A stretch of DNA of 64,000 nucleotides from Myxococcales bacterium (GTDB lineage Bacteria; Myxococcota_A; SURF-8): positions 1 through 64,000 of the forward strand of contig QZKR01000010.1 in assembly GCA_003598065.1 (NCBI GenBank), in the 5' to 3' direction. The position numbers and the translations under genes are program-made. Positions within the stretch are counted from its first letter, which is position 1; every line of letters begins with the position of its first letter. Positions 836-20,995 of the stretch are shown piece after piece. A model generated the notes under the pieces. It searched no databases, was not told the DNA's origin, and worked only from the letters and a program-made list of their open reading frames with translations.

Positions 836-875
836 CCTGGACAATATACGGACGATGCCGATGCAAAAAACTGGC
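836..875 (+). repeat. 40-bp direct repeat, copy 1 (left flank of electron-transfer block)
   Basis: This 40-bp sequence matches 20996-21035 at 36 of 40 positions in the same orientation. The four differences are at repeat positions 8, 19, 35 and 37. The minus strand contains GTCC-N7-GTCC, an 11-bp-phased half-site pair. It lies between the island attachment core and the 3' end of the multicopper-oxidase gene train. Flanking bases do not align with those of copy 2. Confidence 0.75.
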
Positions 876-994
876 ATTCGCGGGGGCCGAAACTATTCCC
901 TTTCCCCGGCGCGCCAGAGCTATTCTTGCTGCGTCCGTGCGCCAGAACAAACACGATCGATTCCGTTCTAGACTGTCGGAGGGGTTTCATGTCG

Positions 995-1023
995 AAACGC
1001 CGTATACCCACGATGACGGCGTT
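995..1023 (-). terminator. Candidate terminator of the electron-transfer gene train
   Basis: On the minus strand, AACGCCGT and ACGGCGTT form an 8-bp stem with a 12-base loop, followed only by a short T run. It starts about 15 bp after the last gene. The weak U tract makes this tentative. Confidence 0.35.
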
Positions 1024-1038
1024 GGCGCAGATTCGGGT

Positions 1039-1524
1039 TCAGCGCACCTGCAACTCGCCCGTGGTGAAGTCTCCAATGGAAACTCTCACGGTCTGTCCGC
1101 GCTTGACCCTCCCGCTGGGGTTGGCGAACAGCATGAACTGGTGTTTCCCATCGCGTTTCGGCCCCATCCGGGTCTGGCGCAGAGCCCCGACCTTCGGCGT
1201 GTTGGGCACCAGGAAGCGCGCACCGCTCTCCACGTCCGTGAGGACGGGCGCAACTTGGCGGTTGATGATCGCTGCGGCCTTTTCGGCATCGAGGACACGG
1301 TAACGGAAATCCAGGATGTAACCGCCGGCCGACAGGAATACGCCGTCGGGCTGCAGGCCGTAGCGCAGCTCCTCCTCGCTCGGCTCCCTGGCGGGGGAAA
1401 ATCCCGCCGGGGTGGCCGGCGAAGAAGCTGCGTGAACGGCGAGCAGGAGGAGGGCCGCCGCCAACGCGGCGGCCACTCCCCCGACGAGAATGCGCTTATT
1501 CGGCTTTCTCGCGTCTCGCGTCAT
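1039..1524 (-). CDS. Small exported or membrane-anchored protein at the end of the multicopper-oxidase genes
   Basis: I do not recognise a named family. The 161-residue protein has a basic N-terminus, one hydrophobic segment (GGVAAALAAALLLLAVHAA) and a small globular part containing GGYILDFRYRVLD, LVPNTPKVG and FMLFANP, then GQTVRVSIGDF near the end. The second half looks like a short beta-sandwich, but no copper-ligand motif is visible. The ATG at 1524 has a GGAG seven bases upstream and sits just past the TAA of the preceding gene, which supports it over an ATG at 1539. It is the last gene of the train, so an accessory role in export, assembly or anchoring of the oxidases is the best guess. 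Confidence 0.7.
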   Translation of the reverse strand: MTRDARKPNKRILVGGVAAALAAALLLLAVHAASSPATPAGFSPAREPSEEELRYGLQPDGVFLSAGGYILDFRYRVLDAEKAAAIINRQVAPVLTDVESGARFLVPNTPKVGALRQTRMGPKRDGKHQFMLFANPSGRVKRGQTVRVSIGDFTTGELQVR

Positions 1525-1528
1525 GTTT

Positions 1529-2704
1529 TTACTCCACAACCGTCAGGTAGCGCAGCATTCCGCCCGGGCTGCCGGGACCGTTGGCCAGGAAGAGGCGGCG
1601 GTCGTAAATCGGATAGCGGCCCGCCTGCGACGGCGTAACGATGAAGTCAACCGTCTTCATGGGAGGCAGATCTATCGTCTGGCGGTTCGGACGATAGGGA
1701 ACCGTATTGCCGTCCTCGGCGATCTGAGTCATGTGCAGGTTCAGCCAGGCGGGTTGGTATGCCTTGAAACCCGTGTTGACGAGGCGCAGCAGCTTGGGCT
1801 GGCCGGTCTGACCCAGCGCGATTTCCGGATCGAAGCCGACTTCGCTGGAATAGGGCTTGCCGTTGATGAGGAAGTACTTCGGGCTGTACTCGATCGTGCT
1901 GGTGACCGTCTCTTCGGGACCGTAGTTTCCCGTCGCCACGGCGTCATGCAGGTCGGGGTCGATTTCGCTGAAGACCAGCGTGGCTTCGTCGGTATAGGCT
2001 GGAGTCTCCGGATAGGCCAGTGTGGGGGAGTGTTTCCGGGCGACCACGCCGTACAGACCCATCTGCACCTGCACCTGGGGATGCGAGCCGCTGTGATAGA
2101 CGTAGGTTCCTTTCCTGAGATTCCAGACGTAATCGACGGCTTCCTCGTTGCCCGGAGGGGTCTCGTGGGTGAAGGCGCGAACGCGGTTCTCCTCGTACAC
2201 CGGCTCCATGCCACCCGTCTCAACGTGTCCGGTGATGACCAGCGACACCGGGACCGGCAGGTTGTTGTCCAAATGGATAGTTAGGCTGGCGTTGTCCGTC
2301 TCCACGACGAGCGGCGGCCCGGGGATGGTGACCTCTCCGTCCTCGGCCCCGAAAGCAGAGTCCTGGGCGAAACCCCACATGACAACTTCATTGCCATCCG
2401 GCATGGTGACGGTCGTCGTGTCGGCGCGCAGGAAGATTTCCGTCGGATCCGTCGGGAGGAGCGCGACCGTGAACGAGGGTCTCCCTTCCGTCGCGGAGGT
2501 GAGGCCCGAAACGGGCTTCGCCAGTTGGAGAAGCCTGGAGGGCTCGGTGGTTGGGGCGGTCGCCCTGTCCACCAAGGCCGGCTCGGGCGAATCGTTCTCG
2601 ATAAACACTTGCGGCAGCCAGCCCATCGCCCACACCGGGTTCGCCGACAGAGGCGACAGCAGGAAGGCGACGAGCAGCGCCAGGAAGAAGCGTGTATTGA
2701 TCAT
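1529..2704 (-). CDS. Multicopper-oxidase-like cupredoxin protein lacking canonical copper ligands
   Basis: A 391-residue exported protein with a signal peptide ending near ANPVWA. It has two cupredoxin-like segments. The first contains IPGPPLVVETDNASLTIHLDNNLP and the family's Pro-Gly-Thr-like turn KGTYVYHSGSH (about 199-208). Where active oxidases have the HCH or HSH metal motif, this protein has only HSGSH, and no HPxHxHG motif is present in the second half. I see no type-1 copper cysteine. It is therefore a structural or regulatory paralogue rather than a self-sufficient oxidase. It follows its paralogue by 34 bp and precedes the small exported protein. Confidence 0.8.
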   Translation of the reverse strand: MINTRFFLALLVAFLLSPLSANPVWAMGWLPQVFIENDSPEPALVDRATAPTTEPSRLLQLAKPVSGLTSATEGRPSFTVALLPTDPTEIFLRADTTTVTMPDGNEVVMWGFAQDSAFGAEDGEVTIPGPPLVVETDNASLTIHLDNNLPVPVSLVITGHVETGGMEPVYEENRVRAFTHETPPGNEEAVDYVWNLRKGTYVYHSGSHPQVQVQMGLYGVVARKHSPTLAYPETPAYTDEATLVFSEIDPDLHDAVATGNYGPEETVTSTIEYSPKYFLINGKPYSSEVGFDPEIALGQTGQPKLLRLVNTGFKAYQPAWLNLHMTQIAEDGNTVPYRPNRQTIDLPPMKTVDFIVTPSQAGRYPIYDRRLFLANGPGSPGGMLRYLTVVE

Positions 2705-2738
2705 GGGTTTCTCCTTTTTATTTTCTCGGCGACGACCA

Positions 2739-3977
2739 TTACGGATGCATCATGGCGTCTGGATGAATGATCACGACCATGGTCATCATGCCGCCGGGGA
2801 AAATGTCGTTGTTCACCATTTCCTTCTCCGCATGCGAATGCCACATGAAAAAGTAGCCCCCGTCCATACCCATGGGCCCGGTTCCAGGCGGCAGGTCCTC
2901 GGAGACGCCCAGGAAGGGCGAGCCGCTGTAGAAGTCGCCAACGGTCTGGTCGAGCTGTTCGGGCGGCAGGACCGGGATGGGTTTCCCGTGGTCGGGCATG
3001 TACTCGCCGGCGACCGGCGGATCACCCGGGGCGTGGCCGTAAATGTCCCAGCCGAGCGCCTCCCCCGTCCAGGTGAACAGGGTGTCGATGGTCTGCCCGG
3101 GGGAAACGGTATGGGTGAAGTCCGTATGTCCCATCTCGGCGTCGCCGCCCAGCACCCGGCCGTCCATGGCAATGGAGGTCGTATGGTTGCCGTGGTGGTG
3201 GAAGGGGTGGGAATCGCGTCCGCCGCCGATCAGGCGCATCAGGATCACCTCGCCCGGACGCATCATGGGCATGCAGCTATAGGGCTGGGTGGGCAGCCAG
3301 GGAACGCCCGGTTCCAGCATGGTGTCGGGTGCGTTGCGGCCGTTGATGAACCAGTAGACCGGCTTGAAATCCGAGGTGTCCACGGGTAGACCCCATTCAA
3401 CGGCCTGGTTGTATCGCAGGTCCATCTCCGTGAGCAGGAATAGATACTCATGGTCGAAGGCCGTGGAAGCCTGAGCGTACGCCTGGCCGGCAGCCGGCGG
3501 GTAGACAATCAGCGCACCCACCAGGCCCAGGGGCACTTGGAGGTCGGCGTGCGTGCCGCTATGGTAGAGGTAGGTGCCAGGCTGGCTGGCGAGGAAGCGG
3601 TACTGCGCCGTTCCGCCGGAAGGCGCGGCTTCGTAGGCGATCAAGCCCGGGACGCCGGATAAGGACTCTACGTTTTCCTGTCCGGGGAAGACGATGGAAA
3701 CCGGCTCCGGCAGATTATTGGTCAGATTGACGGTGACTAGTTCTCCCTGCTGGACTTTCAGGGTCGGGCCAGTGTACTGGGCGCTCCCTGTGCCGTCGGC
3801 GTCGCCGTAACCCCAGAAATAGAGGCTCAGGCCATCGCCTCCGCTGATGTAGCCGGCGTCGGCCACGAGGTTGAAGGTCGTCCCTTCAATGCCGTCGATG
3901 GCGGCTTGCGCGCGGCCCGAGGGGATCGCCAAGGCCAGGAAGAACAGCGCTGTCGGCAGCGTGATTCTCCGGTTCAT
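2739..3977 (-). CDS. Multicopper-oxidase-like protein with C-terminal HPFHHHG and HSH motifs
   Basis: A 412-residue exported protein with a signal peptide cleaved near GRAQA. Domain 1 has the fold signature PGTYLYHSGTH but no HxHG motif. Domain 2 has HPFHHHGNH (257-265) and MWHSHAEKEM (378-387), the two trinuclear-site motifs normally found in the last domain of multicopper oxidases. The cysteine of the usual HCH motif is Ser381, so a type-1 copper site is missing. Its ATG overlaps the stop of the upstream gene by four bases (ATGA), which implies coupled translation with the protein that carries the complementary motifs. A substrate cannot be read from the sequence. Confidence 0.85.
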   Translation of the reverse strand: MNRRITLPTALFFLALAIPSGRAQAAIDGIEGTTFNLVADAGYISGGDGLSLYFWGYGDADGTGSAQYTGPTLKVQQGELVTVNLTNNLPEPVSIVFPGQENVESLSGVPGLIAYEAAPSGGTAQYRFLASQPGTYLYHSGTHADLQVPLGLVGALIVYPPAAGQAYAQASTAFDHEYLFLLTEMDLRYNQAVEWGLPVDTSDFKPVYWFINGRNAPDTMLEPGVPWLPTQPYSCMPMMRPGEVILMRLIGGGRDSHPFHHHGNHTTSIAMDGRVLGGDAEMGHTDFTHTVSPGQTIDTLFTWTGEALGWDIYGHAPGDPPVAGEYMPDHGKPIPVLPPEQLDQTVGDFYSGSPFLGVSEDLPPGTGPMGMDGGYFFMWHSHAEKEMVNNDIFPGGMMTMVVIIHPDAMMHP

Positions 3978-5215
3978 TTCGCACCTCCCTTCTGAGCCTT
4001 GGCGGCGGACAAGACGCGGATCTCGGTCATCGCGCCGCCGAAGTCCTCCGTGTTGTTGCTCAGGAAATTCATGTTGGTGGTATACAGGAAGTAGGTCCCG
4101 ACCGGGACGTCCTCTGTGTCGATGATCACGTCGGCCGACTCACCGCCGCCCAACGTAACGGAGTTCGTGTAATAGTACAGATCCTGTCCCGTCCGGCTGC
4201 GCAGGATGCGCGCGCCCTTCCCCACCACCTGCATCGTCAGGCACTGGGCCGTGAGCGTCAGAAATTCGGTGGTGGACAAGCTGGAGAGACGCAGCAGGAT
4301 GCGTTCGCCCCGGCGGGCCTCGATCAGCGAGCTGACCTTCTGCGACAGCAGCGGTTCCGGGTCGCCCGTGACCTCGGAAGCGTCGGTGGCCAGGGGGTCG
4401 GGATCGACCGTCTCAGGATAACCACGGCCGTTCAGCAGGGCGTAGGTGTCGTGCATGTTGGCGAACGGCAGAGGCTGCACGTTCATGGAAGCGTCGTGGA
4501 ACTCCGGGTCGAAGGTGGTGATCTGGATGGGATAGCCCACGTCGTAGCCCGTCGATCCGTCCCCGTCGTTGTAGGCGAATTTCGTGTAGGTCCGGCCGGA
4601 TCCAGCCGGGTATTCGAAGGTCTGGCCGTCCTGAACGGGCGTGATGTAGAGGTTGCCGAGCATGCCCATCTGCATGTGCTCGCTGGCCTCCACGTGGCAG
4701 TGATACATGTAGGTGCCCGGTTCCACGAGGTCGTAGAAGTAGGTGAAGGTGGCGCCCATGTTGATCGAAATGGCGGCGTCCGGCATGCCGTCGAAGTACG
4801 GCGCGGCGTTGGGGAAGCCATGGAAGTGGACCGTGTGCGGGTCGAACAGGTCCGGGCGCGTTATCATGCCCACGTTGGTGAGGCTGATGAACAGTTTCCG
4901 GCCTTGACGGGCCGTGATGGTCGGCCCAGAGGCTTCGGCGCCGAGCATCTTTTCCATCATGACCATCGAATCCGGGATGCCGGTCGCATCGCCGAACCCG
5001 AACATATACTGAAGGCGGCCGTCAGCCATCGTGACGAATCCGTCTCCCGCGGAAAGGTGATAACAGACATGGTCGTTGTCCGGATCGCCGTCGAGATCCG
5101 TGTCGATTCCGTCCGTGTCCGACGGACACTGGGAAACCACTTCCGCCAGAGCGCTCCCTCCGGCGAATACGCCTAGGAGCAGCCCGGCCAGGGACATTAA
5201 GATGAGGCGTTTCAT
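3974..5215 (-). CDS. Multicopper-oxidase-like protein with HFHG and type-1 HCH motif in domain 1
   Basis: A 413-residue exported protein; the signal peptide ends near GSALA. Domain 1 contains HTVHFHG (127-133) and YHCHVEASEHMQMGM (171-185), giving a plausible type-1 copper site of Cys173, His180 and Met185 plus two His-X-His pairs. Domain 2 keeps the cupredoxin beta pattern but has no His-X-His motif. This is the layout of two-domain oxidases with type-1 copper in domain 1, except that the second-domain copper ligands are missing here and present in the next gene. A calcium-site-like DTDLDGDPDND segment follows the signal peptide. It overlaps the upstream 1640-residue gene by four bases (ATGA). 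Confidence 0.87.
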   Translation of the reverse strand: MKRLILMSLAGLLLGVFAGGSALAEVVSQCPSDTDGIDTDLDGDPDNDHVCYHLSAGDGFVTMADGRLQYMFGFGDATGIPDSMVMMEKMLGAEASGPTITARQGRKLFISLTNVGMITRPDLFDPHTVHFHGFPNAAPYFDGMPDAAISINMGATFTYFYDLVEPGTYMYHCHVEASEHMQMGMLGNLYITPVQDGQTFEYPAGSGRTYTKFAYNDGDGSTGYDVGYPIQITTFDPEFHDASMNVQPLPFANMHDTYALLNGRGYPETVDPDPLATDASEVTGDPEPLLSQKVSSLIEARRGERILLRLSSLSTTEFLTLTAQCLTMQVVGKGARILRSRTGQDLYYYTNSVTLGGGESADVIIDTEDVPVGTYFLYTTNMNFLSNNTEDFGGAMTEIRVLSAAKAQKGGAK

Positions 5216-8200
5216 GGATTTGCTCCTTCCGCTGACTCGATCGTGAAGAATCGAAGGATTCTGTCGAAAAATCCCGTCGATTCGTCGTTTTCGGACAAAG
5301 TCGTTTCCTTGCCGCGTCTGGCGTCCAGCGGCGCGTTCTCATCCGCTCCGGCGTCCACCGGAGCCCTGCGCCGTTGGTTGTCGAAATCGTTTTGCAGCCG
5401 CGAAGACACCGAGAGGGCCGAGAAGCTGCCGATACCCACCGCCGAAGACCCCGATCCGATATGATAGTCACCGGTCGGCGTGATCGGCAGGAACGTGGTC
5501 GTGACCATGTTGCCGAACGCGGCGCCCTTGCTGGTCGCCTCGTAGGTGTTGAAATAGTCGCTCACGAAGTCCGGATCACCCGTCTCGTTGGCGCCGTCGT
5601 AACCGGATGGGTCGGTCAGGACGCAATACATCGGGTTGAGAAACTCCGTGCTCAGGGTTCCGTATACGGCCAGGTCCCAGTACAGCGGATCCTCGCCGCC
5701 CTCAATGTCCGGTCGGAGTCCGCCGATGTCGCCGTTATACGTTGCGTCCCAGTAGAAAGTGCGGTTTTGCCAGATGATGTTGTTGACCAGGTAAGGATCC
5801 GAGAACTCCTGGTAGGTGGACGGCTGGAAAGCCCCAAGCAGGTCCTTGCTGTGACGCCGGGAGGCAATGCCGGCCACCTGCGGAACGGAGGTAGTCAACC
5901 CGCCTTGGCCCTCGACCTCCGGCGGACAGATATTGCCGGGAGGCAGGCCGGGCGTGCAGGGACCGCCGAAGGCGTCCACGCCCGTCGAGGTGCTGTCGTT
6001 GTGGGCGATGGTGTTGTTGACGATGGAAATAGAGGCCGTGTCGTCCAGCGAGATGCCGCCGCCCACGTCCGCGGAACTGTTGTTCACGATGATGTTGTTG
6101 ACGACCAGCAGGTTGTACCAGCGGTTCGGGTTGCCGGGCCGACGCTGGACATCCTGGCCGTTGTAAAGCAGGGTGCGGATGCCGCCGCCGTCGTCGCCCG
6201 CCAGGTTGCCCTGGATCAGGTTCCCGTCGATGGTGACGGACCCCGCCCCTTCGGTGAGCGTGTTCGCCGGAGCCCCGGCAGGCACGAGTTCGCCGCTCAC
6301 GATGATGCCGCCGCCCTCGTCGAAGGATTGGTTGAACAGGATTTTGTTGTCCTGGATCACTCCGCCGTGGCTCAAACCGACGTGCGCAATGCCGCCGCCG
6401 TAGGACAGCGTGAAGTTGCCGCAAATGTAGTTCTCGGCCACGTTGTAGTTGCCGGAACCGCTAAACAGGGCGATGCCGCCACCACCGTCCACCGCACCGT
6501 TGGTGGCAATGTGGTTGTAGCGGATCATCAGTCTCTCGTTCTTGGAGGGGTTGTATCCGGTTCCGGCATCATTAACCAGGGCCGGGGTTCCGACGCGAAT
6601 GCCGCCGCCGAAGTTGCCCTGATTGCCGGTGATGCGGTTGTTCGTGATTTCGAGGTAGCGCGCCCAGCCGTTGACCAGGATGCCGCCGCCCTTGACCGCG
6701 CCGATAAAGGTAAAGCCGTCGATGCGCGCGGGGTTGCCGCGCCCGAAGAGCCCCTCACGCGTGGCGACGGTGACGCCAGCCGCCGTCTCCAGGTAAAAAT
6801 CGGGCCGTTCTCCGGGGATCAGATCGATGTCGCCGGAGTCGATGAGTTCCTGCATCCTTGTTTCCCAGGCCGTCTGTTCCGAAGGCGTGAGCGGCCCGGC
6901 AAGAATGAAGGTCGAGAAGGCGCCGGAACCCTGCAGCTTGACCTTTTTGTACAGGATCAGATTCTCGCGGTACACGCCCGGCTCGACCAGGATGAGATCG
7001 TTGGCGTCGGCCGCGTCGATCGCATCCTGGATGGACTCGCCCTCCCTTACGCGCAGGGGGCTGTCGCCGCCGATGTGCAGGGTGACGCCCACCACGGTGG
7101 TAGCGCCGTTGTCGCCGCGCCTGACCATAAGCTGACCGCTGCGCCTGCTGCGCGGCACGGTCGCTCTAATGGTCAGGCCATCCGCCGACCAGGACACGAT
7201 CCTCAGCGTTTCCCCATTCAGCGTGACCGAACCTCGAATGGCGCCGAAACCGAAATTACGCGTGACGAGCGGGTCGCCCACGGGATTCAGCCGGTCGTAG
7301 TCAGGGTTGGGCAGCTTAACGTCGCCCACGGCCTGGATCGTGATAATTCCGCCCCGACTGGAGACCCATGGCCCGAAGTCGCTCGGTCCGTTAACCGAGT
7401 GGATAATCGGCGTCATGTCGGGATACTCGCAGTCCAGCCGCTTCTGGCTGCCCGCGAAGGCCGCGATGGGCAGGATCGGCGTGTCCAGTCTGGTGGTGCG
7501 GCCCGGCCAGAATTCCCAGCTGGTGCAGATCTGGGAGTAGCGCGGATCATACCAGGGATCCAGGATGCTGCGGCTCGGATTGTTGGGATCCGTAATCGGG
7601 CCGGGGTGGTTCAGGCAGGCCTCCAGTATATTGGGCGAAACGCCCGAGGGAGAAGGCACATTGACCGTGTAGGTCGAGGGAACCAAAGCATTGTATTTGC
7701 CCCACTCGTCCGTGTACACGCGCGCCACCTCGACGCCGGTCCAATCCCGGATCGCGACCGGCAGCCAGGACGGCGCGAAGTTCGTGCCTTTATTCGGGCT
7801 GTTCGGGTCGAACTCGAACAGGACGTCGTTGAGCACCGTGCCCCAAATCCGTCCCGCCTTGGGCACGGGTGTGAACAAGAAGAAGTCGGCCGCCGCGTTC
7901 CTGCCGCTGTTCAGAAACACTTGCTTGCGGTCGCAGAGGCGTTTCATCTGACCGGCGGAAGGCGCTTCGATGTCGTTGAACAGCGATAGGGTCGGCGGGA
8001 CCTCATGGTCGTCGCCCGCGCAGAGGACAGGCAGGGTCTTGTTGGAGGGAACGAACTCGTCGCCGTAATCGACATTTTTGTCCTCCTCCTTGACGATGAC
8101 GTAGCCGGTCGGGGGGATGACCTCGACGATGTAGGCGCCGCTCGGCAGTCCCTCCACCTCCTCATTTCCGGAGCCCAGGCCGCCGGGCACGAAGGACGTA

Positions 8201-10134
8201 AAGGCGTAGCCGCCGTCGAAGACGGCCGGCCGGACCTGGTTCCAGGTGGCGATCGTCTCGGCGCAATCCATGACCGGATCGCCGTAAACGACCTGCGGAT
8301 CCCCAACGCAGCCGGTCGGAAGCGAATTATCCCAGCTATCTGTGAAGACGGTCTGAATGGCGTCGTCCAGGTCGATGATGGTGTCGCCGTTCAGATCGTC
8401 CCGCTCCAAGTTGCGATCGGCATCGAGGTACAGGTTGACCTGCACGCCGGGGATGCCCGGTTCCCACTCCTCACCCACGCCGTAGGCGGGGTTGTTCTCG
8501 GCGCGCGTCGTCGAATAGAAAACGACGCCGGAAATGCCGCCGTTCTCGCCCGGCGCGTAGGCGTTCTTGCCGAAGTCGATGCGGTTGTTCGAATCGCTGT
8601 ACAGCAGCATGCCCTCCAGCAGCACCTCGCCGGTCTCGGTGCGCCAGCCCAAGTCGCCGTTTTCGGGCTGGGGCTGGGGGTTGCGCTTCTCGCCTGGAGG
8701 CAGCGGCCCGCCGTCGTCCACGAAGACCGTGGCGCCGGTGGCCTTGAAACGCAGAAAGTCTACTTCCACGACCATCCAGTGGAAGAAGGGGAAATACTCG
8801 TCGAAGGAGTATTCGCCGTCGCCGTTGGTGGCCGTGGCGGAATAAATGGAACCGTCCGGCCAGCGGATGTTGATGTTCTGCCCCGAGATGCCAGGCTCGC
8901 CGGGATCCATCCTCCCGTTCAGGTCACTGTCGAAGAACACGTTGCCTTCCAGCGTCCCGAACCAGCCATAGATCGCCTGCGGTCCGAGTTCCACCGTTTC
9001 ACTCGGTTGAACGACAACCGTACGGAAGTCGATGATGCCATCGAGGTACTTGTCGAACATGGTCAGCAAATACTGCCCCGGCGGGACGTCCGTAATCGTG
9101 AAGGTGCTATCCTCCTCGCACGGTTGCAGATAGACCATTTCGTCAGCTGCATCCAGGTCGTTTAGGGCCACATAACAGTTCGGCGCCGGCAGTCCCGGAT
9201 TCAAGCCGGGGCTAAGCGGCGGTCTGTTCATATGGACATAGACGACCTGGCCGGTGATCGTTCCCGGCGGGCCGTCCGCAGGCGTTATGTCCGGAAAGAC
9301 CGTTTCTTTGGCAAAACCGGTGAATACGTGCTGCTCAAAAAAGCCCCATTCCGCGAAAAACGGCGGCTCGTCGGCCTTGACCCAGGCATCGACGGTAGGG
9401 GTGCCTTCTATCGTCGAGGTCTGAATCCAGCCCTCGCCGAGCGGCGGCGCCACAAGGACGCCGTATTTGCCAGGGGCCAGATTCTTGACGAGCGCTTCAC
9501 CGTCGGGACCGGTGATGATGACGCCGTCGCCCATCATGGTCACCTCGCCGTCGGAGTCGTACTCGGTGCCGAGCGGGTTGCCGAAAGCGTCCACCGAGAC
9601 CTGCCCGGCAAAATCCTTCAGAATGACACTGAAACCTTCAAGTCCCTCCTCCGCCGGAACGTCGGGGGCGGAGTTGAGGCTCTGATGGTCGTGAAAGGCC
9701 AGCACCCGGATCTGAGCCGTGGGGATGGGGTTGGCGTGAACCACGACCGTCACGTCGGTTTGGCCGGCATTCACCTGCGCGCCGCCCAAGGTATAGCCGC
9801 CGTTCGGGAGCACCGAAACGTAGTAGCGACCGCTTGTGGAAACGGGAACCTCTACCGAGGAATTGCCCGTTTGCCCGCTTTCCAGCACCGGAGCGTAGGT
9901 GCGGTGAATATTCAGCGCCAGGCTGCTTGTGTCTTTGGTTCCCGGCGAGACCGGAAGCGTCGTGTCCTCCTCAACTAGCCACCGGAAACCACTGACAGGA
10001 TTCTGATTGTCGTCCACCACACGCACCGTAAAGGCCCAGGCGTTTGCGTGGACTGCCAGCGTCAGGCCGAGGAAAGCCAGGATCGCTGTTGGTCCGCGCA
10101 ACTGTAGGGCATGCCTGCCGTGTCTGCTTGCCAT
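5212..10134 (-). CDS. Giant secreted SdrD_B / parallel beta-helix protein
   Basis: A 1640-residue exported protein with a signal peptide ending near ANAWA. The first third has repeated prealbumin-like beta domains (GPDGEALVKNLAPGKYGV). Around 390-470 and 530-740 are SdrD_B-like modules (GNVFFDSDLNGRMDPGEPG; LDADRNLERDDLNGDTIIDLDDA) with calcium-binding Asp/Asn loops. Around 930-1045 is an IPT/TIG-like region. From about 1045 to 1560 it is a right-handed parallel beta-helix, with the family start GESIQDAIDAADANDLILVEPGVYREN and many GGGI turns. No sortase motif or barrel is seen. The four-base overlap with the first oxidase gene and the large repetitive surface suggest a cell-surface scaffold for the oxidases. 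AGGAGG lies upstream of the ATG. Confidence 0.85.
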   Translation of the reverse strand: MASRHGRHALQLRGPTAILAFLGLTLAVHANAWAFTVRVVDDNQNPVSGFRWLVEEDTTLPVSPGTKDTSSLALNIHRTYAPVLESGQTGNSSVEVPVSTSGRYYVSVLPNGGYTLGGAQVNAGQTDVTVVVHANPIPTAQIRVLAFHDHQSLNSAPDVPAEEGLEGFSVILKDFAGQVSVDAFGNPLGTEYDSDGEVTMMGDGVIITGPDGEALVKNLAPGKYGVLVAPPLGEGWIQTSTIEGTPTVDAWVKADEPPFFAEWGFFEQHVFTGFAKETVFPDITPADGPPGTITGQVVYVHMNRPPLSPGLNPGLPAPNCYVALNDLDAADEMVYLQPCEEDSTFTITDVPPGQYLLTMFDKYLDGIIDFRTVVVQPSETVELGPQAIYGWFGTLEGNVFFDSDLNGRMDPGEPGISGQNINIRWPDGSIYSATATNGDGEYSFDEYFPFFHWMVVEVDFLRFKATGATVFVDDGGPLPPGEKRNPQPQPENGDLGWRTETGEVLLEGMLLYSDSNNRIDFGKNAYAPGENGGISGVVFYSTTRAENNPAYGVGEEWEPGIPGVQVNLYLDADRNLERDDLNGDTIIDLDDAIQTVFTDSWDNSLPTGCVGDPQVVYGDPVMDCAETIATWNQVRPAVFDGGYAFTSFVPGGLGSGNEEVEGLPSGAYIVEVIPPTGYVIVKEEDKNVDYGDEFVPSNKTLPVLCAGDDHEVPPTLSLFNDIEAPSAGQMKRLCDRKQVFLNSGRNAAADFFLFTPVPKAGRIWGTVLNDVLFEFDPNSPNKGTNFAPSWLPVAIRDWTGVEVARVYTDEWGKYNALVPSTYTVNVPSPSGVSPNILEACLNHPGPITDPNNPSRSILDPWYDPRYSQICTSWEFWPGRTTRLDTPILPIAAFAGSQKRLDCEYPDMTPIIHSVNGPSDFGPWVSSRGGIITIQAVGDVKLPNPDYDRLNPVGDPLVTRNFGFGAIRGSVTLNGETLRIVSWSADGLTIRATVPRSRRSGQLMVRRGDNGATTVVGVTLHIGGDSPLRVREGESIQDAIDAADANDLILVEPGVYRENLILYKKVKLQGSGAFSTFILAGPLTPSEQTAWETRMQELIDSGDIDLIPGERPDFYLETAAGVTVATREGLFGRGNPARIDGFTFIGAVKGGGILVNGWARYLEITNNRITGNQGNFGGGIRVGTPALVNDAGTGYNPSKNERLMIRYNHIATNGAVDGGGGIALFSGSGNYNVAENYICGNFTLSYGGGIAHVGLSHGGVIQDNKILFNQSFDEGGGIIVSGELVPAGAPANTLTEGAGSVTIDGNLIQGNLAGDDGGGIRTLLYNGQDVQRRPGNPNRWYNLLVVNNIIVNNSSADVGGGISLDDTASISIVNNTIAHNDSTSTGVDAFGGPCTPGLPPGNICPPEVEGQGGLTTSVPQVAGIASRRHSKDLLGAFQPSTYQEFSDPYLVNNIIWQNRTFYWDATYNGDIGGLRPDIEGGEDPLYWDLAVYGTLSTEFLNPMYCVLTDPSGYDGANETGDPDFVSDYFNTYEATSKGAAFGNMVTTTFLPITPTGDYHIGSGSSAVGIGSFSALSVSSRLQNDFDNQRRRAPVDAGADENAPLDARRGKETTLSENDESTGFFDRILRFFTIESAEGANP

Positions 10135-10856: not shown

Positions 10857-12578
10857 TCACCAACTGTATCGCAGACCGGCGCGCAGTATGTACCAGCCGC
10901 GGCTGAAAGAGGGGGCTACAAGAGTATGGTCGTAGGCGGCTTGGCCGAGCAACCAGAGTGTGAAAGCGTCGAACGGTTCGCCGGACAGGCTGAGCGTGCC
11001 GAGGTGCTCCATCTCGCTGAAGTCGCGCCCATCGGGGGAAAGCCAGAGGACATGGTAGCCGGCGCCGGCCCAAATACGCTCGCGCAGCAATTCGCCGGTC
11101 ACATCGAGCGCGGCCTGGGCCCGGCGCGCATCGCCTTCGCCGTAATCGCCGCTCACCTCGATTTCGAGCGGCGCGCCGCCGGGCTCCCGCTCGAGGTAAG
11201 CCAGGCCGCCGGCAGCCGCCCATGTCGAGCCCGTCGCGTCCGATTCCCGCAGGTAGTAGCCATAGGGCCGCAGTCTCCGGCGCTTCTCGGTCACCCAGAA
11301 TCCGATCGCCCCGTCGGCCCGCAACGAATCGCTGTCCTTGAGCGCGGCCAGCCATTCGGCGGGAAGGTCGGCCGTCTCTTCCACGAGCGGTTCGGCGCCC
11401 ACGTACCGCACATTGGCTTCGAGATCCAGCCAATCCAGGGGATGGCTTGCCGCCAGAAGCGCCGCGTCCGCCAGGTTCGGCCCCGAATTCCCGTAGGCCG
11501 ATTCGTCGGCCGTGAACAGTTCCAGGGTCGCCGTCTGGATGAGCAGCAGCGCGTCCTCCAGGCCAAGCCGGTTGTCCAGATAAACGGCGTGCCGCTGGCC
11601 CTGGCCGAACTCCCCGTGATAGCCGCCGGTGACACGCCAGTCCGCCGTCTTGGAGACGGGATGAACCGAGACGCCCGCCCCGCCCGCCGGCCGCTCGGCG
11701 CTGGGAATCAGGTCGAGGGAGGTTGGGCGAAGGCCGCCATAGGCGAAAAAGGATAAACTCGGATTCGACCAGCCCAGTTCGCCGCCGTCAAGCAGGCCCG
11801 CTGGGCGCGCCGAGGGGACCACGCGGCCCGCCGCCACGACGATCCCCGTGGGTTCATTTTCGTACTTCAATTCAAGTTGCCGGATCAGGGGCAGCGCCCG
11901 CTGGCCAGTCAGGTAGCGATCTTCCTCGGCGTCGTAGCGCAGCCCTACCTCGCCGCGCACGCGCAGGCCGAGGCCGCGCACGCCGAGGTCCCGGCCGCGC
12001 GCCCACAGCGCGACAATCTGTTCGTGGCGCGACTCGCCCGCCGGACTGAATTGCGAGCCGCCCTCGTACCAGCTTTCGACAACGCCATCGGCGCTCGGCG
12101 AAACATCGCCTTCCTCAGATCCGCCTTTGTAGACCACCCGTTGTGGAGGATTCTCCGTCAAGGCCCCCGGCCAGGCCCCGCCCATCTCCGCCTCCGACCA
12201 AAGCGGTGTCGGCGTCCGCTTCGTTCCGGTTGCGGGCGCCGCTTCTTCGACGGGTTTCCCGCCACAGGCGAAGCTGTCGCCCGGCTGCGGCTTCTGAGTG
12301 GGATTCTCCACGATTCCCGCCGCCCGATGTTCCGACGCTTCCGTGATGCGCAGGTTGGCGATCTCCCGCCCGCGGCGCGAGAGAGTCAGTGTGTCGCCGG
12401 CGGCGCAGCCATCGGCCAGGCCGCGATCCAGGTACACCATCTCCCCGGCGACATACACCACCCTTCCTTCGGCGGCCGCATAAGCGGAAGAAACCAAAAA
12501 GCCGAAAAGCAGCCCGGCGGCGGCACAGCCTCCGACCACGCAGGCAAGAAAAGAAAAATGGCTCCTCAGGTTAGCCAT
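10857..12578 (-). CDS. Outer-membrane beta-barrel protein, candidate porin of the cytochrome conduit
   Basis: About 573 residues from the ATG at 12578, which overlaps the TAA of the cytochrome gene (ATGGCTAA). A signal peptide (cleavage near SSAYAAA) is followed by a small domain, EGRVVYVAGEMVYLDRG...GDTLTLSRRGREIANLRITEA, which looks like a beta module. The remainder has alternating amphipathic strands and ends in the aromatic signature LRAGLRYSW typical of barrel insertion. An upstream ATG at 12629 would overlap the cytochrome gene by 59 bases and is less likely. In porin-cytochrome complexes a barrel sheathes a multiheme cytochrome across the outer membrane, and this gene directly follows the 42-heme lipoprotein. 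The pairing is inferred from gene order. Confidence 0.75.
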   Translation of the reverse strand: MANLRSHFSFLACVVGGCAAAGLLFGFLVSSAYAAAEGRVVYVAGEMVYLDRGLADGCAAGDTLTLSRRGREIANLRITEASEHRAAGIVENPTQKPQPGDSFACGGKPVEEAAPATGTKRTPTPLWSEAEMGGAWPGALTENPPQRVVYKGGSEEGDVSPSADGVVESWYEGGSQFSPAGESRHEQIVALWARGRDLGVRGLGLRVRGEVGLRYDAEEDRYLTGQRALPLIRQLELKYENEPTGIVVAAGRVVPSARPAGLLDGGELGWSNPSLSFFAYGGLRPTSLDLIPSAERPAGGAGVSVHPVSKTADWRVTGGYHGEFGQGQRHAVYLDNRLGLEDALLLIQTATLELFTADESAYGNSGPNLADAALLAASHPLDWLDLEANVRYVGAEPLVEETADLPAEWLAALKDSDSLRADGAIGFWVTEKRRRLRPYGYYLRESDATGSTWAAAGGLAYLEREPGGAPLEIEVSGDYGEGDARRAQAALDVTGELLRERIWAGAGYHVLWLSPDGRDFSEMEHLGTLSLSGEPFDAFTLWLLGQAAYDHTLVAPSFSRGWYILRAGLRYSW

Positions 12579-15500
12579 CGCTTCTGCCGTTCGGATGGCA
12601 CGCCAGGCACCTGGCGTTCTCGCATGCATAGTCCGGCCGCTCCTTGTGCTTTTCGTTCATGCGAATACAGCTATGCTCGTTGTCGTCATGACACTCGGTG
12701 CAAGAGAAGCTCTGGTAGGTTCCCGCGGCCTGATGGCAGTCGCTACACGAATAGCGGCTGTGATGACCGCTAACAATCGGAAACATCGTGTGCCGCTCGC
12801 GTGTCATGACGAGGCCATCCAGATGGCAGGCGAGGCATTCGGACGAGGTCCAGGCGTAGCCATTCACCCCGGTGTGTTCCGTCGCCATCGTCGGCTGGTC
12901 GTGGTCATGGCAGGCGGTGCAGGTGAAATCGTCGTAACCGTTCGGATGGCAAGCGGCGCAGGCTGTCGTCCCGTGCGGAGTTCCCGTAGCGACGGGGAAG
13001 TTGGCGGCGTGTTCCGTTCGGCTCATGGCCTCGCCGGTCGGATGGCACTGGCGGCACTGCGCCGAGACCCAGGAGTAATCTGCCACGGTGGCATGCTTGT
13101 CCGCCATCGTCGGCTGATCGTGATCGTGGCAGGCGGTGCAGGTGAAATCGTCCGTGCCGCTCGGGTGGCAGCCGACACAACTGGTTTCGCCGTGCGCGGT
13201 TTCGGCGCTGACCGGGAAGTGGACCAGGTGCTCGGTGCGGTCCATGGCCTCTCCGCTCGGATGGCAGATGCGGCACTGAGCGGTCTCCCAAACATAATCC
13301 GGGACATTGGGATGCTTGTCCGCCATCGTCGGCTGCTCGTGGTCGTGGCAGGATGTGCAGGTGAAGTCGTTCATGCCGTCCGGATGGCAAGCCGTGCAGG
13401 CTGTCTCGCCGTGCGGGGTTTCCATGTCGATGGGGAATTTAACAAGGTGTTCGGCGCGGCTCATCGCCTCGCCCGTCGGATGGCACTGGCGGCATTGCGG
13501 CGAGATCCAATCATAGTCTTCCATGTTGGGATGCTTGTCCGCCATCGTCGGCTGGTCGTGGTCATGGCAGGCGGTGCAGGTGAAATCGTCATACCCGTTC
13601 GTGTGGCAGCCGTCGCACGTCGTTTCGCCGTGCGCGGTTTCGGCGCTGACCGGGAAGTAGACCAGATGCTCGGTGCGGTCCATGGCCTCTCCGCGCGGGT
13701 GGCAAGTGCGGCACTGGGTGGTCTCCCAACCGTAATCCGGCACATCGGGATGCTTGACCGCCATCACCGCCTGCTCGTGGTCATGACAGGCAGTGCAGGT
13801 GAAGGTGATCTGCCCGTTCGGATGGCAGCCGGTGCAGGGAGTCTCCGCATGCGCCGTTTCCGGACCGATGGGAAAATTGTCTTCGTGATCGAGCCGATCC
13901 AGGGTCCGACCGTCGGGGTGGCAGGCCAGGCATTGTGGGGATTCGTATACATAGCCGGCCACCTCGTTGTGCTGTTCGTCGGTCTCTCCCTCCGCGTGCT
14001 TATGGCACTGGGTGCAGGTAAACGAATCGAAGCCGTCCGGATGGCACTCCGCGCAAGTCTGTTCCTTGTGCACCGCCTCGCTGTCGATGGGGAAGAAGGT
14101 TTCATGCCGCAGACCTTCAGGATCGCTGTCCGGATGGCAGGCCAGACACCAGGGCGAATCGTATCGGTAGCCGGCGACCTCCTGATGCTCGGCATCCGCC
14201 GTCACGCGGGCGTGGTCGTGACAGTCCGTGCAGGTAAACTCGCTCACGGTGCTCGGATGACAGTTGTTGCAGGCCGCCTCCCCGTGCGCCTCGCCCTCGG
14301 TGATGGGGAAGTACGGATGATTCTCGCGTCCCACCACTTCGCCGTCCGGATGGCAGGTCAGGCACTTCGGCGAGTTGTAGGCATAACCCGGCAAACCTTG
14401 ATGGTGGCTGTCCGTCTCGGTCCGGCCATGCTCGTGGCAATCGGTGCAGGTAAAAGTATCCTGCCCGTCCGGATGGCATTCTCGGCAGCTTTGATCCTGG
14501 TGCGTGGATTCCGGACCGATGGGGAAAAACGTGTGGCGCAGTCCTTCTTCTTCGCTTTGCGGATGGCAGGCCAGGCAGGCGGGCGAGTCCCAGCGGTACC
14601 CATCGACGCCCTGGTGCGCGCCCTCCATCTCATCTTGTCGGTGCTCGTGGCAGTTCGTGCAGGCGAAGCTCTCCGATCCGTCCGGATGGCACTCCAAGCA
14701 GCGTACATCGCCGTGGCTTGATCCCGCTCGGATCGGGAAATCGAGATGATCCTCGCGCCCTTGCACCTCGCCGTCCGGGTGGCATTCCAGGCACAGCAGC
14801 GAGTCGTATTGATAGTCCGGGACGGCGATGTGATCGGGGTCCGTTTCCTCCCGAGCATGATTGTGGCAGGTCAGACAACTGAACGAGTCCGATCCATCCG
14901 GGTGGCAGCTCTGACAGGCGATCTCGCCGTGGTTGGACCCCGACCCGATGGGGAAGCGGTCATGCGACTCGCGGTCGAGTCCCTCTCCGTTCGGATGGCA
15001 TTCCAGGCATTTCGAGGAAACATACGCATACCCCGGCACCCCTTGGTGGGCGTCGCTCATGCCCGGCTGGCCGTGGGCGTGGCAGGCGACGCAGGTAAAG
15101 GCGCCCGGACCCTCCGGGTGACACTCGGTGCAGGTCTGTTGGTTGTGGGTAGCCTCCGGCCCGATAGGGAAAAAGGTGTGACGGAGGCCATCGTCGCCCG
15201 AACCGTTTGGGTGGCAGGCCAGGCACCAGTTCGAATCCCACATGTAGCCGTCCACCGATTCGTGTTCCCCTCCCATCTCCTCGCGTGCATGGGCGTGACA
15301 GTCGATGCAGGTGAAATCTCCGTAGGTCTCGCCGTTGTGGCAGTCCTTGCAGGAAAGGTCTCCGTGCTCGCTACCGTCATCGATCGGGAAGTGGCGGCTA
15401 TGGTCGATGTCGCCCAGCCTCCCCATGGGATGGCATTCCAGGCAGGTCGGGGAATCGTAGACGAACTCCGGTACGCCGTCATGGGTTTCCCGGGTCAGCG

Positions 15501-15747
15501 CTTCCTCGTGCCGGTGGCAGTTGAAGCAGGTGAATTCGCTGAAGCTGTCGAACCCTCCATGGCATTTGTTGCAGTCCATCGGCGTGTTTTCCGCCGCGCC
15601 GTGGTCGGTGGGAAACTTCGTCGTATCATGCTCCTCAACGCTGAGGCTGGAAGGAGGGGATTCGGGCCTGGGTTGACAGGCGGCGATCATGAACGCCAGG
15701 ACCGCCAGCCCAAGGACAAGCAGCCCATCCTTGGCGATGCTGCGCAT
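12571..15747 (-). CDS. 42-heme c-type cytochrome lipoprotein built from 73-residue three-heme repeats
   Basis: A 1058-residue protein with the lipobox IAAC (Cys24). I count 42 CxxCH motifs, matching 14 repeats of about 73 residues with three hemes each. The repeat reads roughly HGE-CxxCHPxG, FTCTxCHxHxxxxM, then YxW-CxxCHPxGE and RxxHxxxFPI. Each unit has enough further histidines for bis-His ligation. The protein is expected on the outer membrane as an electron wire. The DNA of the C-terminal half shows recent duplication (see the repeat at 12883-13760). Its start codon shares one base with the stop of the 30-heme gene (TAATG), and its stop overlaps the barrel gene, so the three should be made together. 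Confidence 0.93.
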   Translation of the reverse strand: MRSIAKDGLLVLGLAVLAFMIAACQPRPESPPSSLSVEEHDTTKFPTDHGAAENTPMDCNKCHGGFDSFSEFTCFNCHRHEEALTRETHDGVPEFVYDSPTCLECHPMGRLGDIDHSRHFPIDDGSEHGDLSCKDCHNGETYGDFTCIDCHAHAREEMGGEHESVDGYMWDSNWCLACHPNGSGDDGLRHTFFPIGPEATHNQQTCTECHPEGPGAFTCVACHAHGQPGMSDAHQGVPGYAYVSSKCLECHPNGEGLDRESHDRFPIGSGSNHGEIACQSCHPDGSDSFSCLTCHNHAREETDPDHIAVPDYQYDSLLCLECHPDGEVQGREDHLDFPIRAGSSHGDVRCLECHPDGSESFACTNCHEHRQDEMEGAHQGVDGYRWDSPACLACHPQSEEEGLRHTFFPIGPESTHQDQSCRECHPDGQDTFTCTDCHEHGRTETDSHHQGLPGYAYNSPKCLTCHPDGEVVGRENHPYFPITEGEAHGEAACNNCHPSTVSEFTCTDCHDHARVTADAEHQEVAGYRYDSPWCLACHPDSDPEGLRHETFFPIDSEAVHKEQTCAECHPDGFDSFTCTQCHKHAEGETDEQHNEVAGYVYESPQCLACHPDGRTLDRLDHEDNFPIGPETAHAETPCTGCHPNGQITFTCTACHDHEQAVMAVKHPDVPDYGWETTQCRTCHPRGEAMDRTEHLVYFPVSAETAHGETTCDGCHTNGYDDFTCTACHDHDQPTMADKHPNMEDYDWISPQCRQCHPTGEAMSRAEHLVKFPIDMETPHGETACTACHPDGMNDFTCTSCHDHEQPTMADKHPNVPDYVWETAQCRICHPSGEAMDRTEHLVHFPVSAETAHGETSCVGCHPSGTDDFTCTACHDHDQPTMADKHATVADYSWVSAQCRQCHPTGEAMSRTEHAANFPVATGTPHGTTACAACHPNGYDDFTCTACHDHDQPTMATEHTGVNGYAWTSSECLACHLDGLVMTRERHTMFPIVSGHHSRYSCSDCHQAAGTYQSFSCTECHDDNEHSCIRMNEKHKERPDYACENARCLACHPNGRSDG
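12883..13760. repeat. 219-bp tandem repeat units inside the 42-heme cytochrome gene
   Basis: The string GCCATCG recurs at 12883, 13102, about 13322 and 13541, a period of 219 bp (73 codons, three hemes). A longer stretch at 13184-13264 reappears almost unchanged at 13622-13702, 438 bp away. This indicates duplication of a two-unit, six-heme block. Confidence 0.85.
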
Positions 15748-18356
15748 TACTCACTTCCTCCGGGATGGCACTGATAACACTTCCGGTCCTTGCACTCATA
15801 ACCCCTGACCCCCCGGTGTTCGCCCGTCTCGCATCCGTGACAGGCTACGCATGAAAATGTGGCGTTCCGGCAAGTCCCCGTCGGCTGCGGGATCGTTCCG
15901 ACGTGGCAGGACTTGCACGAGAAGCCGGAGTGATTGCTCCCCGCCGAGATCGGGAAGCAACGGTCGTGCGACGAGTAGGATGCCGTGCCCCAATTGAGCG
16001 GCGTATGGCATTGTTCGCAGGTCGTCGGCAGATTGGTGTGATCCGGGACGGCGCTTGCGCCCAGCGGCCGATCGTCGGCGTGGCAGGCCGCGCAGCGGCG
16101 TGGCGTGCGGTCGAAACCGAGGTCGCTCACGTCCCGGTGGCACTCCCGGCATTCGACCATGGCATGCGCCCCTATAAGCGGGAAGCTGGTGTGCTGATGG
16201 CGGCCGGCGGCGGTGAGCGGCCGGTTGAAGCCGTCCGGCGTATGGCAGCTCTTGCAGTCCTGGCCCAGGCGGCCCCGATGCACGTCCTGGTGGCAACCCG
16301 CGCAGTCCTTCGGCAGCTTGCGCTCGCCGTTCTTGTGGCAACTACTACAGGCGGTGCGCCGGTGCAGTCCGAGCAGCGGAAAGCCGGTGCGCTCGTGGCG
16401 GAAACGCAGATCGTCCCAGCCGCCTGCCCGGTGGCAGGTCTCGCAGGGCGTATCCGATTTCTGGCCCTGCCAGCTCTCGGGGGCGCTCCAGGCGCCGCCT
16501 GCCTTTTCCGGCGGCGACGGGGCGGCCGAGCCGTCCATCGCCAGGCTCGCCGCCTCGCGGTACGCGCCCCGGTGCGGATCTTCATGGCAAACGGCGCAGG
16601 TCTTCGGCGTAGGCCGGTAGCGGACCGTCTCCCGCTCCTCGGCCAGCTTGATTTTCGGATGGCAGCCTGAACAGGCGACACGGCCATGCCGCCCCTCCAG
16701 AGGGAAATCGCTGAATTCTTGCCGCTGATGGTCGAAGGCCAAGGTTTTGAAACCCTCGGTTTTGTGGCATGTCGCGCAGGGCGCTACGGGTTCGAGCAGA
16801 CGGAACTGCCCGAAGTGCACGTCAGCATGGCAGGGCAGGCAATCCGCCTTGGGCAGGGGCGCATAGCGCGCGAAGCTTCCCTGAGCATCGCGCTCTTGCG
16901 CATGGCAGGCCGCGCAGGCGACTTTCTCGTGTTTGCCGGTCAGGGCGTAACTGGTCTTGGAGTGGTCGAATTTGCCGATCTTCCATGTGTTTTCGACGTG
17001 GCAATCCAGGCAGGCGCGCTTTTCGAACTGGTTGCGGTGCGGCGAGGCATGACAGCCTTCGCAGCGTGCGAATTTTTCAGGCTCGACCTTCAGACGCCAG
17101 GGCGAAACAACCTCATTGGCTAGGCGGCCCGGCGCGGCCTTGGCCTTCTGGACCGCGCGCGGCGTCCCCATCGCCTCCAGGTGGCAGGCCGGGCAGGCTA
17201 CCGCGCGGTGAGAGCCGGCTAGCGGGTAACGGCTCTTTTCGTGCTGCGCGAGCCTGTAGCGGACCGGGGTGAAACCGGCGGTGGTGTGGCAATCCTCGCA
17301 GGCCTGCGGCTCAGGTCTGGAGGAATCCATGTCGGGATGGGCCCCGGGGTGGCAGTCCGTGCAATGCTTATGGGGGATGCCCTTGTGCTTCGGTTTGCCA
17401 TCCGCGCCGACGCGATGACAGTGCGCACAAGGGACGGTGGCGTGGCGCCCGGTCAGGGGAAAGGCGGTCTTGTCGTGGAAGGAACGGTCCGCCCCGGCGA
17501 GAATGTCCCTCCAACTGGACATCTGATGGCATTCGAGGCAGCGTTTTCCGAAGCGGCCGCTATGCGGATCTTTATGGCAGTCGGTGCAGGCGGCATGCGG
17601 GGTCGGCTTGTACGCCGCCGCGTCCTGGGATTTGGTCGGCAGTTTGCCGGTCACGGCGGCGGCAGGTTTCTTCGGATGACAGAGCGTGCAGGCCACGCGT
17701 GCGTGCGCGCCTTCGAGCTTGTAGGTCTGGGCGTGATCGAAACCCGGCGCGGGGGACCATTTCTCCTCGTTGTGGCAGCGCTCGCAGCCGCCTTTCAGCT
17801 GGCCCCGGTGTTCGTCCGAATGGCAGGCCTCGCAGCCTTTGGACAAGCCGAGATAAATGTCGGCCTGCGGATGGCTCCCCCAGTAGGTTTTCACCACGGG
17901 CTCCGCGACCAGGCCGGGGTTGTGGCAGGCGTCGCATTTCTGCCGCGCATGAGCCCCGGAGAGAACGAAGCCGGTCGCCTTGTGCGGGAAATCCTTTTTC
18001 GAACCGTCCGGCCACTGGATCAGGGCGTCGTCGCGGCCCTTGTGTTCGGTATGGCATTGTTCGCAGGGCGCGTTTCCGCGTTCGTCCCGGCCGTGCCAGC
18101 CTCGGCCCTTTTCGATCGCCGTACGAATGGGCTGGTGGCAGGAGAGACAGGCGCTGCGGTCGATGCCCCTTTCCGTGGAATGGCAGCGGTCGCAGGCTGT
18201 CATCGAGCTGAGATCGGCATGCGGGGCGGAAAGCTCTCCCGGTGAAAAGATCTGCGCCTCGGCCCGCGCTCCAAACAATCCGATGGCCAGCCCGAGAAAG
18301 GCTACCCCCACCCGCGGAATGCGACTCAACCATGCAGTTTTAATTAGAAAACCCAT
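15747..18356 (-). CDS. 30-heme periplasmic c-type cytochrome
   Basis: About 869 residues with 30 CxxCH motifs by my count. A signal peptide (MGFLIKTAWL...GLFGARAEA) has no lipobox, so it is probably soluble in the periplasm or peripherally bound. Spacing is less regular than in the 42-heme protein; recurrent elements are FPLxGRHxxVxCxxCH, CxxCHxDxHxGxxG and CxxCHxxxxW, the style of cytochrome c7/c3-like multiheme proteins. The ATG at 18356 overlaps the preceding gene by 13 bases; an ATG at 18374 is an alternative. Its position between the inner-membrane reductase and the outer-membrane lipoprotein suggests it bridges the periplasm. One cysteine-rich C-terminal stretch (CVACHGCETGEHRG) has an extra cysteine. 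Confidence 0.92.
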   Translation of the reverse strand: MGFLIKTAWLSRIPRVGVAFLGLAIGLFGARAEAQIFSPGELSAPHADLSSMTACDRCHSTERGIDRSACLSCHQPIRTAIEKGRGWHGRDERGNAPCEQCHTEHKGRDDALIQWPDGSKKDFPHKATGFVLSGAHARQKCDACHNPGLVAEPVVKTYWGSHPQADIYLGLSKGCEACHSDEHRGQLKGGCERCHNEEKWSPAPGFDHAQTYKLEGAHARVACTLCHPKKPAAAVTGKLPTKSQDAAAYKPTPHAACTDCHKDPHSGRFGKRCLECHQMSSWRDILAGADRSFHDKTAFPLTGRHATVPCAHCHRVGADGKPKHKGIPHKHCTDCHPGAHPDMDSSRPEPQACEDCHTTAGFTPVRYRLAQHEKSRYPLAGSHRAVACPACHLEAMGTPRAVQKAKAAPGRLANEVVSPWRLKVEPEKFARCEGCHASPHRNQFEKRACLDCHVENTWKIGKFDHSKTSYALTGKHEKVACAACHAQERDAQGSFARYAPLPKADCLPCHADVHFGQFRLLEPVAPCATCHKTEGFKTLAFDHQRQEFSDFPLEGRHGRVACSGCHPKIKLAEERETVRYRPTPKTCAVCHEDPHRGAYREAASLAMDGSAAPSPPEKAGGAWSAPESWQGQKSDTPCETCHRAGGWDDLRFRHERTGFPLLGLHRRTACSSCHKNGERKLPKDCAGCHQDVHRGRLGQDCKSCHTPDGFNRPLTAAGRHQHTSFPLIGAHAMVECRECHRDVSDLGFDRTPRRCAACHADDRPLGASAVPDHTNLPTTCEQCHTPLNWGTASYSSHDRCFPISAGSNHSGFSCKSCHVGTIPQPTGTCRNATFSCVACHGCETGEHRGVRGYECKDRKCYQCHPGGSE

Positions 18357-20620: not shown

Positions 20621-20995
20621 TGCAATCTCCGTCCGTAGGATGTCTGGCGAAAGAAACGATACTATTTTTACCACGACTCCGGCAATGAGACCAATCAGTC
20701 CGCTCTTCTCAATACGCTAAGTAGTCGTTTTCAGAACGCCGTCTGGTCAAAGTAGTCAAACGGGATTTTTACCATGAAATATTAAATGGTTGATCTCATT
20801 TTAGCCGTGATTCCCCGTCCGTCGCCTTTAAACGGCTTCCCGGCAGTAGCGTCCCCCGCCTCAAGATCCCGCCATGTGCTTCGCCCCGTCGCGTCCGGGG
20901 CGTCGGCCGGGAGCTTCGTCTTCGAGTCTTCCGGCAGCTTCAGTGGAAAAGATCCATATCGCGCGCCCCAGCCAATTTGAATGGAGGTCTGAGTC

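Follow-up and report, generated by a model that had tools for sequence, protein, structure and literature searches.

In type-C two-domain multicopper oxidases (MCOs), domain 1 provides the type 1 (T1) copper ligands (H, C, H and M) together with four histidines of the trinuclear copper cluster (TNC), and domain 2 provides the other four; we take the Nitrosomonas europaea blue copper oxidase (3g5w) and a metagenome laccase (2zwn) to belong to this type. In ceruloplasmin, six cupredoxin domains form a ring of pseudo-threefold symmetry that has one trinuclear site and several T1 sites, all within one polypeptide. Two-domain MCOs have been described as trimers whose TNC residues come from two protomers, with the T1 site of type C in the N-terminal domain (PMC13151041). 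According to that description, both half-sites come from a single gene and the trimer consists of identical chains, whereas no chain has both at the locus analyzed here, three tandem genes (A, B and C) on the minus strand of a 64,000-nt stretch of a Myxococcales bacterium (assembly GCA_003598065.1, contig QZKR01000010.1, positions 1 to 64,000; hereafter the window). Like 3g5w and 2zwn, the leading PDB matches of the triad proteins by both sequence and fold, each product has two cupredoxin domains, with the domain 1 motifs of these oxidases found in A and their domain 2 motifs in B.

Clusters of this kind have been reported before. Sideroxydans lithotrophicus ES-1 carries three tandem MCO genes, predicted to be extracellular and non-homologous to suggested metal oxidoreductases (He et al. 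2017, PMC5566968). Their products, Slit_1816-1818, were more abundant on magnetite, two of them having MCO motifs and a larger third lacking them, and similar clusters are named for Paraburkholderia, Ralstonia, Anaeromyxobacter and Steroidobacteraceae (PMC12016527). We observed the same arrangement, three tandem cupredoxin genes of which two have motifs and one has none, in the window, in 61 of 65 loci, and in Cupriavidus and Paraburkholderia; the triads of Cupriavidus metallidurans CH34 and Paraburkholderia caribensis, both found on complete replicons, fit the published description of Slit_1816-1818. Matched by that description only, Slit_1818, Slit_1817 and Slit_1816 are taken to be A, B and C, respectively. 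The motif-less Sideroxydans protein is larger and has adhesin-like domains, whereas the window has a separate gene for a likely surface protein (S) and adjoining giant cytochromes. By comparison, the MnxEFG manganese oxidase of Bacillus (PMC5622069) is also a copper oxidase of several subunits whose genes adjoin, but MnxG is its sole MCO. In the portions of PMC12016527 and PMC5566968 available to us, neither complementary motifs nor one shared site is stated, and a literature search over titles and abstract openings, with few subscription papers, returned no MCO trinuclear site made from two gene products. The cluster type is already in print, but that search found no account of a complementary, strictly conserved division of the copper site over two genes, accompanied by a ligand-free third paralogue.

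Division of the copper ligands between A and B

Proteins A (3974..5215, 413 amino acids [aa]), B (2739..3977, 412 aa) and C (1529..2704, 391 aa) all have multicopper-oxidase Pfam domains above curated cut-offs. The two-domain cupredoxin architecture of each chain is indicated by Pfam, by the placement of the B and C model parts on 2zwn and 3g5w and, for A, by a profile alignment with the other two. None of the three reached the cut-off of any NCBIfam family: the CopA model TIGR01480, which represents the three-domain type, gave 57.0 bits for B, 39.3 for A and 18.2 for C against a cut-off of 478.95, and the copper nitrite reductase (NirK) model TIGR02376 gave 34.6 bits for B and 26.0 for A against 296.3.

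Upon inspection of the ligand motifs, domain 1 of A was found to contain H127-T-V-H130-F-H132-G and H172-C173-H174...H180-M-Q-M-G-M185, which comprise a full T1 site (H127, C173, H180 and M185) and four TNC histidines (H130, H132, H172 and H174), while its domain 2 is ligand-free and has no HxH pair. The reverse holds for B, where domain 1 has neither HxH nor a Cys ligand and domain 2 has H257-P-F-H260-H-H262-G and W-H380-S-H382, giving the TNC histidines H260, H262, H380 and H382 and a retained T1-type histidine (H257) without the T1 Cys. Neither domain of protein C has an intact copper motif, and an HxH pair is absent. A PDB sequence search with A returned 3g5w as the top match (9.9e-13), over its domain 1 half-site; for B, 3g5w was the second match (1e-11), and the HxHG of its domain 2 faces the HPFHHHG of B.

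We followed this pattern over 70 loci including the window, with a few genomes contributing two: 12 came from a scan of genome contigs, 52 from genome searches (L082-L133), two were the named Burkholderiales replicons, and three were further loci. Each of the eight ligands of A (H127, H130, H132, H172, C173, H174, H180 and M185) is conserved in 70 of 70 loci, so that the T1-in-domain-1 feature of type C is present in A throughout but in neither B nor C. Where the type 2 site of NirK has an Asp, A has H130, a His in all 70 loci, which sets A apart from that family as well. In B, H260 and H262 are invariant (68/68 each), as are H380 and H382 (67/67 each, with one gap), whereas the T1-type H257 is His in 63 of 68 loci and Tyr or Gln in the other five. 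The Cys position of B domain 2 is occupied by Ser, Asn or Asp, and by Cys in none of 67. Drift of H257, which has no T1 copper to bind, serves as a built-in control, indicating that the four TNC histidines of B are specifically kept.

The matching positions elsewhere have almost all lost their ligands. Domain 1 of B has no His in 68 loci at the equivalents of H127, H130, H132 and H174 and no Cys at that of C173 (0/68), although the H172 equivalent is still His in 27 of 68 and the H180 equivalent in 7 of 68. Domain 2 of A lacks His at the equivalents of H260, H262 and H380 (0/69 each), with a single case at H382 (1/69) and five of 61 at the T1-type position. For C, 0-2 of 64-65 sequences have His at ligand-equivalent positions, except for the H172 position (11/65), and no Cys occupies the T1 position of domain 1. 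Thus, unlike type-C oxidases with both half-sites in each chain, A is without the domain 2 half, B without the domain 1 half, and C without both. A smaller earlier count (65 A rows and 63 B rows, some truncated) gave the same picture. The sequence-only reading of the window had described these motifs and absences in A and B and had noted that the pair jointly holds the HxH pairs of a trinuclear site; all of this was borne out, and the split recurs across the 70 loci. Broken or mis-assembled genes peculiar to this metagenome-assembled genome (MAG) were considered and ruled out, as the identical split occurs in complete replicons.

Spread, gene order and paralogy of the triad

The A family is sparse. 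In the window's own phylum 6 of 282 genomes carry it, and in the phylum of L016, which is again the window's own, 5 of 187; the phyla of L013 and L014 gave 13 of 297 and 13 of 198, the order of L008 gave 9 of 251 and the class of L017 gave 10 of 369. Further samples gave 3 of 30 in one family, 1 of 36 and 7 of 180, and these genome samples overlap in part. Record titles of the first 12 loci name methanotrophs, Gammaproteobacteria, Acidobacteria, Deltaproteobacteria, Nitrospirae and one Bacteroidales MAG, whose 4.7-kb contig (L006) may be mis-binned, so the phylum was given no weight. The contig bearing the triad in L014 is titled Nitrospirae bacterium MnB_6 Mn-Nitrospirae. Every Candidatus Manganitrophaceae genome is described as having two novel MCOs (PMC9040806), which might be A and B.

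Together, A, B and C were found in 61 of 65 loci, always arranged as A-B-C, on one strand and within 4.5 kb, and the order was repeated in five of five loci added later. L010, L015 and L133, three of the four loci outside this pattern, end at contig edges. For the fourth, L130 (genome G1230), C was located at 2-5548 on the minus strand of L140, on the same contig and strand but approximately 9 kb upstream of A-B and not directly downstream. C is split into two overlapping frames in L007 (12708-15367) by a frameshift or an assembly error. Subtilase genes lie downstream of C in L009 (15696-19001) and L013 (14968-17103), the L009 one carrying five cadherin/Ig-type repeats; they hint that the surface proteins are processed. 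In the window, the start codon of B (ATG, 3977-3975) and the stop codon of A (TGA, 3976-3974) overlap as ATGA at 3977-3974 (tcat on the plus strand); this overlap, which the sequence-only reading took to favour equal synthesis, is present but is a weak argument for it, since several loci have a stop codon or short gap between A and B.

Absent from that reading were C (2704-1529), a member of nearly every cluster, and the upstream protein S. Encoded at 5212..10134 on the minus strand, S (1640 aa) has SdrD_B-like and weak right-handed beta-helix matches and is likely a surface or anchor protein; its gene overlaps that of A by another ATGA, at 5215-5212. With a profile of S applied to 68 loci, we found a separate open reading frame (ORF) in 51, a fusion to A in 2 (L010 and L090) and a fusion to C in 8; the remaining 7 showed no S in the fetched stretch, which in several of them is short or truncated at a contig end. 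Apparent S-A fusions in L082 and L100 were rejected because S is in another frame there. C of Cupriavidus reaches 2708 aa and matches cadherin, SdrD_B and, weakly, beta-helix domains. That the fusion partner of S differs between lineages, being either A or C, suggests that S, A, B and C form one cell-surface assembly.

A, B and C are each monophyletic in a tree of 61, 61 and 55 sequences (support 1.0, 0.91 and 0.98), from which sequences of 300 aa or less were left out. B and C look to be the closer pair among these paralogues, judging by profile comparison (B-C 3e-92, A-B 4.9e-60, A-C 1.3e-44). C is the least conserved, with mean majority frequencies of 0.57 and 0.53 versus 0.62-0.66 for A and B. 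Pairwise distances over 65 triads were correlated for all three pairs, most highly for A-B (r = 0.88, compared with 0.76 for A-C and 0.78 for B-C), although such correlation would also be expected of genes that travel together without contact.

A probable trinuclear site assembled from two gene products

Strict complementary conservation of the ligands and the constant neighbourhood of A and B make a single trinuclear site, shared by the two proteins within a heteromer, the best reading of these observations and, in our judgement, a probable one. Within the triad, domain 2 of B is the only means by which the half-site of A could be completed. The ancestor would have been a type-C two-domain MCO homotrimer in which domain 1 of each chain met domain 2 of its neighbour around a trinuclear cluster; unequal loss following triplication would have left A with the domain 1 half-site and T1, B with the domain 2 half-site and C with neither, such that the three paralogues would now have to assemble. 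The simplest assembly would be an A:B:C ring with a single T1-TNC unit at the contact of A domain 1 with B domain 2, the other contacts, A domain 2 with C domain 1 and B domain 1 with C domain 2, being purely structural. Electrons would be taken up at the T1 copper of A and travel by way of C173 and H172/H174 towards the TNC, where O2 would be reduced to water, and S would hold the complex outside the cell. The probable work of such a complex would be an extracellular oxygen-linked oxidation, for example with Fe(II), Mn(II) or minerals as substrate or with electrons delivered by the adjoining giant cytochromes.

The proposed 1:1:1 ratio follows from the geometry of a ring of three two-domain chains, which leaves two ligand-free contacts, both with C; that this exact stoichiometry applies is, in our estimate, about an even call. 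The same balance attaches to the fuller proposal of an obligate ceruloplasmin-like A:B:C ring, with one active T1-TNC unit and two dead contacts, fixed to the surface protein and forming the oxygen-facing end of extracellular electron transfer, which may as readily prove wrong as right. Such a ring would share with ceruloplasmin its six domains and one trinuclear site, but would be made from three genes and have one T1 site. The sequence-only reading had envisaged A:B complexes of 2:2 or 3:3; its heteromer is retained here, whereas those ratios omit C, and 1:1:1 suits three paralogues better.

Several points temper these proposals. As no fusion of A with B was encountered, single-chain AlphaFold2 models were made by reading through the stops in L009, where the three genes lie in one frame. 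Both the A-B-C chain (1200 aa, lacking the N-terminal strand of A) and the A-B chain (863 aa) gave modest overall scores, with a predicted local distance difference test (pLDDT) of 65.4 and a predicted template modelling score (pTM) of 0.47 for the former and 65.0 and 0.45 for the latter, and the ligand loops were mostly below 50 in each, so that neither model speaks for or against the contact. Domain 1 of B was well folded in both, as was C in the longer chain, while the loops of A domain 1 and B domain 2 were poor. The model alignments were shallow, with 16 and 17 rows only, owing to the tendency of individual A, B or C rows to align with the wrong paralogue. Solved structures were matched mainly one subunit at a time: the C part of the L009 model aligned with 2zwn (Z 25.9, root-mean-square deviation [rmsd] 2.5) and 3g5w (Z 25.8, rmsd 2.4) over 264 residues each, and the B part of the L009 A-B model with 2zwn (Z 24.7, rmsd 3.2, 269 residues) and 3g5w (Z 24.5, rmsd 3.0, 267 residues). 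Among the matches listed for the two models ceruloplasmin did not appear, which is neutral for the ring proposal. Crude mutual information between A domain 1 and B domain 2 was twice the expectation, but that between A domain 2 and B domain 2 was higher still, and after per-column normalisation the former pair showed no enrichment (170 vs 186 expected; near-ligand P about 0.8) in samples of 65-68 sequences. Coevolution was dropped as evidence for contact, the first count having been favourable, the second less so and the normalised one not at all. The claim that a heteromer rebuilds the site draws on complementary conservation and constant adjacency, with no support from coevolution. The search profile, built from motif-bearing A sequences, is biased toward intact A ligands, a bias that is weaker for B, which was taken as whatever adjoined A. 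Abundance percentiles in Sideroxydans magnetite culture were 79 for C, 75 for B and 30 at most for A, under a provisional assignment of the three (PMC12016527). Finally, the substrate and cell location suggested above are drawn from neighbouring genes and from signal-like N-termini read by eye.

Other explanations fit parts of this evidence. A and B might share a site without C, for instance as several A-B pairs, leaving C as a mere adaptor to the surface protein; this could account for a paralogue that is least conserved, ligand-free, fused to S in 8 of 68 loci and, in L130, not adjoining B (though on the same contig). We consider it rather unlikely, given that C retains a full two-domain fold (Z about 26 to 2zwn and 3g5w) and accompanies A-B almost everywhere, that S is fused to A as well in two loci, and that a closed three-chain ring with one active contact requires its third chain to differ from both A and B.

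Considerably less plausible is a scheme in which A and B act separately, A as a blue-copper electron carrier and B as a copper-binding or structural protein, with no trinuclear site. A pure T1 carrier needs none of H130, H132, H172 and H174, yet these are present in 70 of 70 loci, and B on its own has no need of H260, H262, H380 and H382, yet they are invariant while its T1-type His drifts; moreover, precisely the missing half adjoins every time. The scheme does agree with the complete T1 set in A alone, and with the AlphaFold2 chains and mutual information, which demonstrated no contact. Partners from elsewhere, such that domain 2 of another oxidase completes the half-site of A and another domain 1 that of B, seem to us scarcely credible: several relatives' genomes have further multicopper oxidases, but adjacency and correlated distances tie A to B, and Cu-oxidase_3 matches at E <= 0.001 in the window genome were A, B and C only, in a survey that included no search for a domain-2-only module.

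Neighbouring genes and implications

Focusing on the surrounding genes of the window, S, A, B, C and a 166-aa ORF (1039..1539) follow one another on the minus strand, with a 590-aa protein, two cytochromes and an oxidoreductase upstream in the same direction. The 166-aa ORF overlaps the end of C, has no Pfam match and has homologues in 7 of the first 12 loci; it is possibly a further part of the system. The 590-aa protein (10857..12629), with no Pfam or NCBIfam match, was guessed by eye to be an outer-membrane barrel and is a neighbour of putative membership, as are the two multiheme cytochromes, one of 1058 aa with 42 CxxCH motifs and a regular repeat (12571..15747) and the other of 875 aa with 30 CxxCH motifs (15747..18374). 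These cytochromes adjoin each other, and both are very heme-dense. A 776-aa 4Fe-4S/pyridine nucleotide-disulphide oxidoreductase with a C-terminal membrane-like part (18344..20674) is a likely candidate for the entry point of electrons into the cytochromes.

If A and B do share one site, the enzyme would be missed by annotation and by expressing A, B or C singly, and the triad would represent a clear case in which complementary loss in a duplicated homo-oligomer has led to an obligate hetero-oligomer. Since the triad is present in the cultured model C. metallidurans CH34, in addition to the magnetite-linked Sideroxydans cluster, the idea is testable now. It bears on how bacteria may oxidize solid iron or manganese outside the cell.
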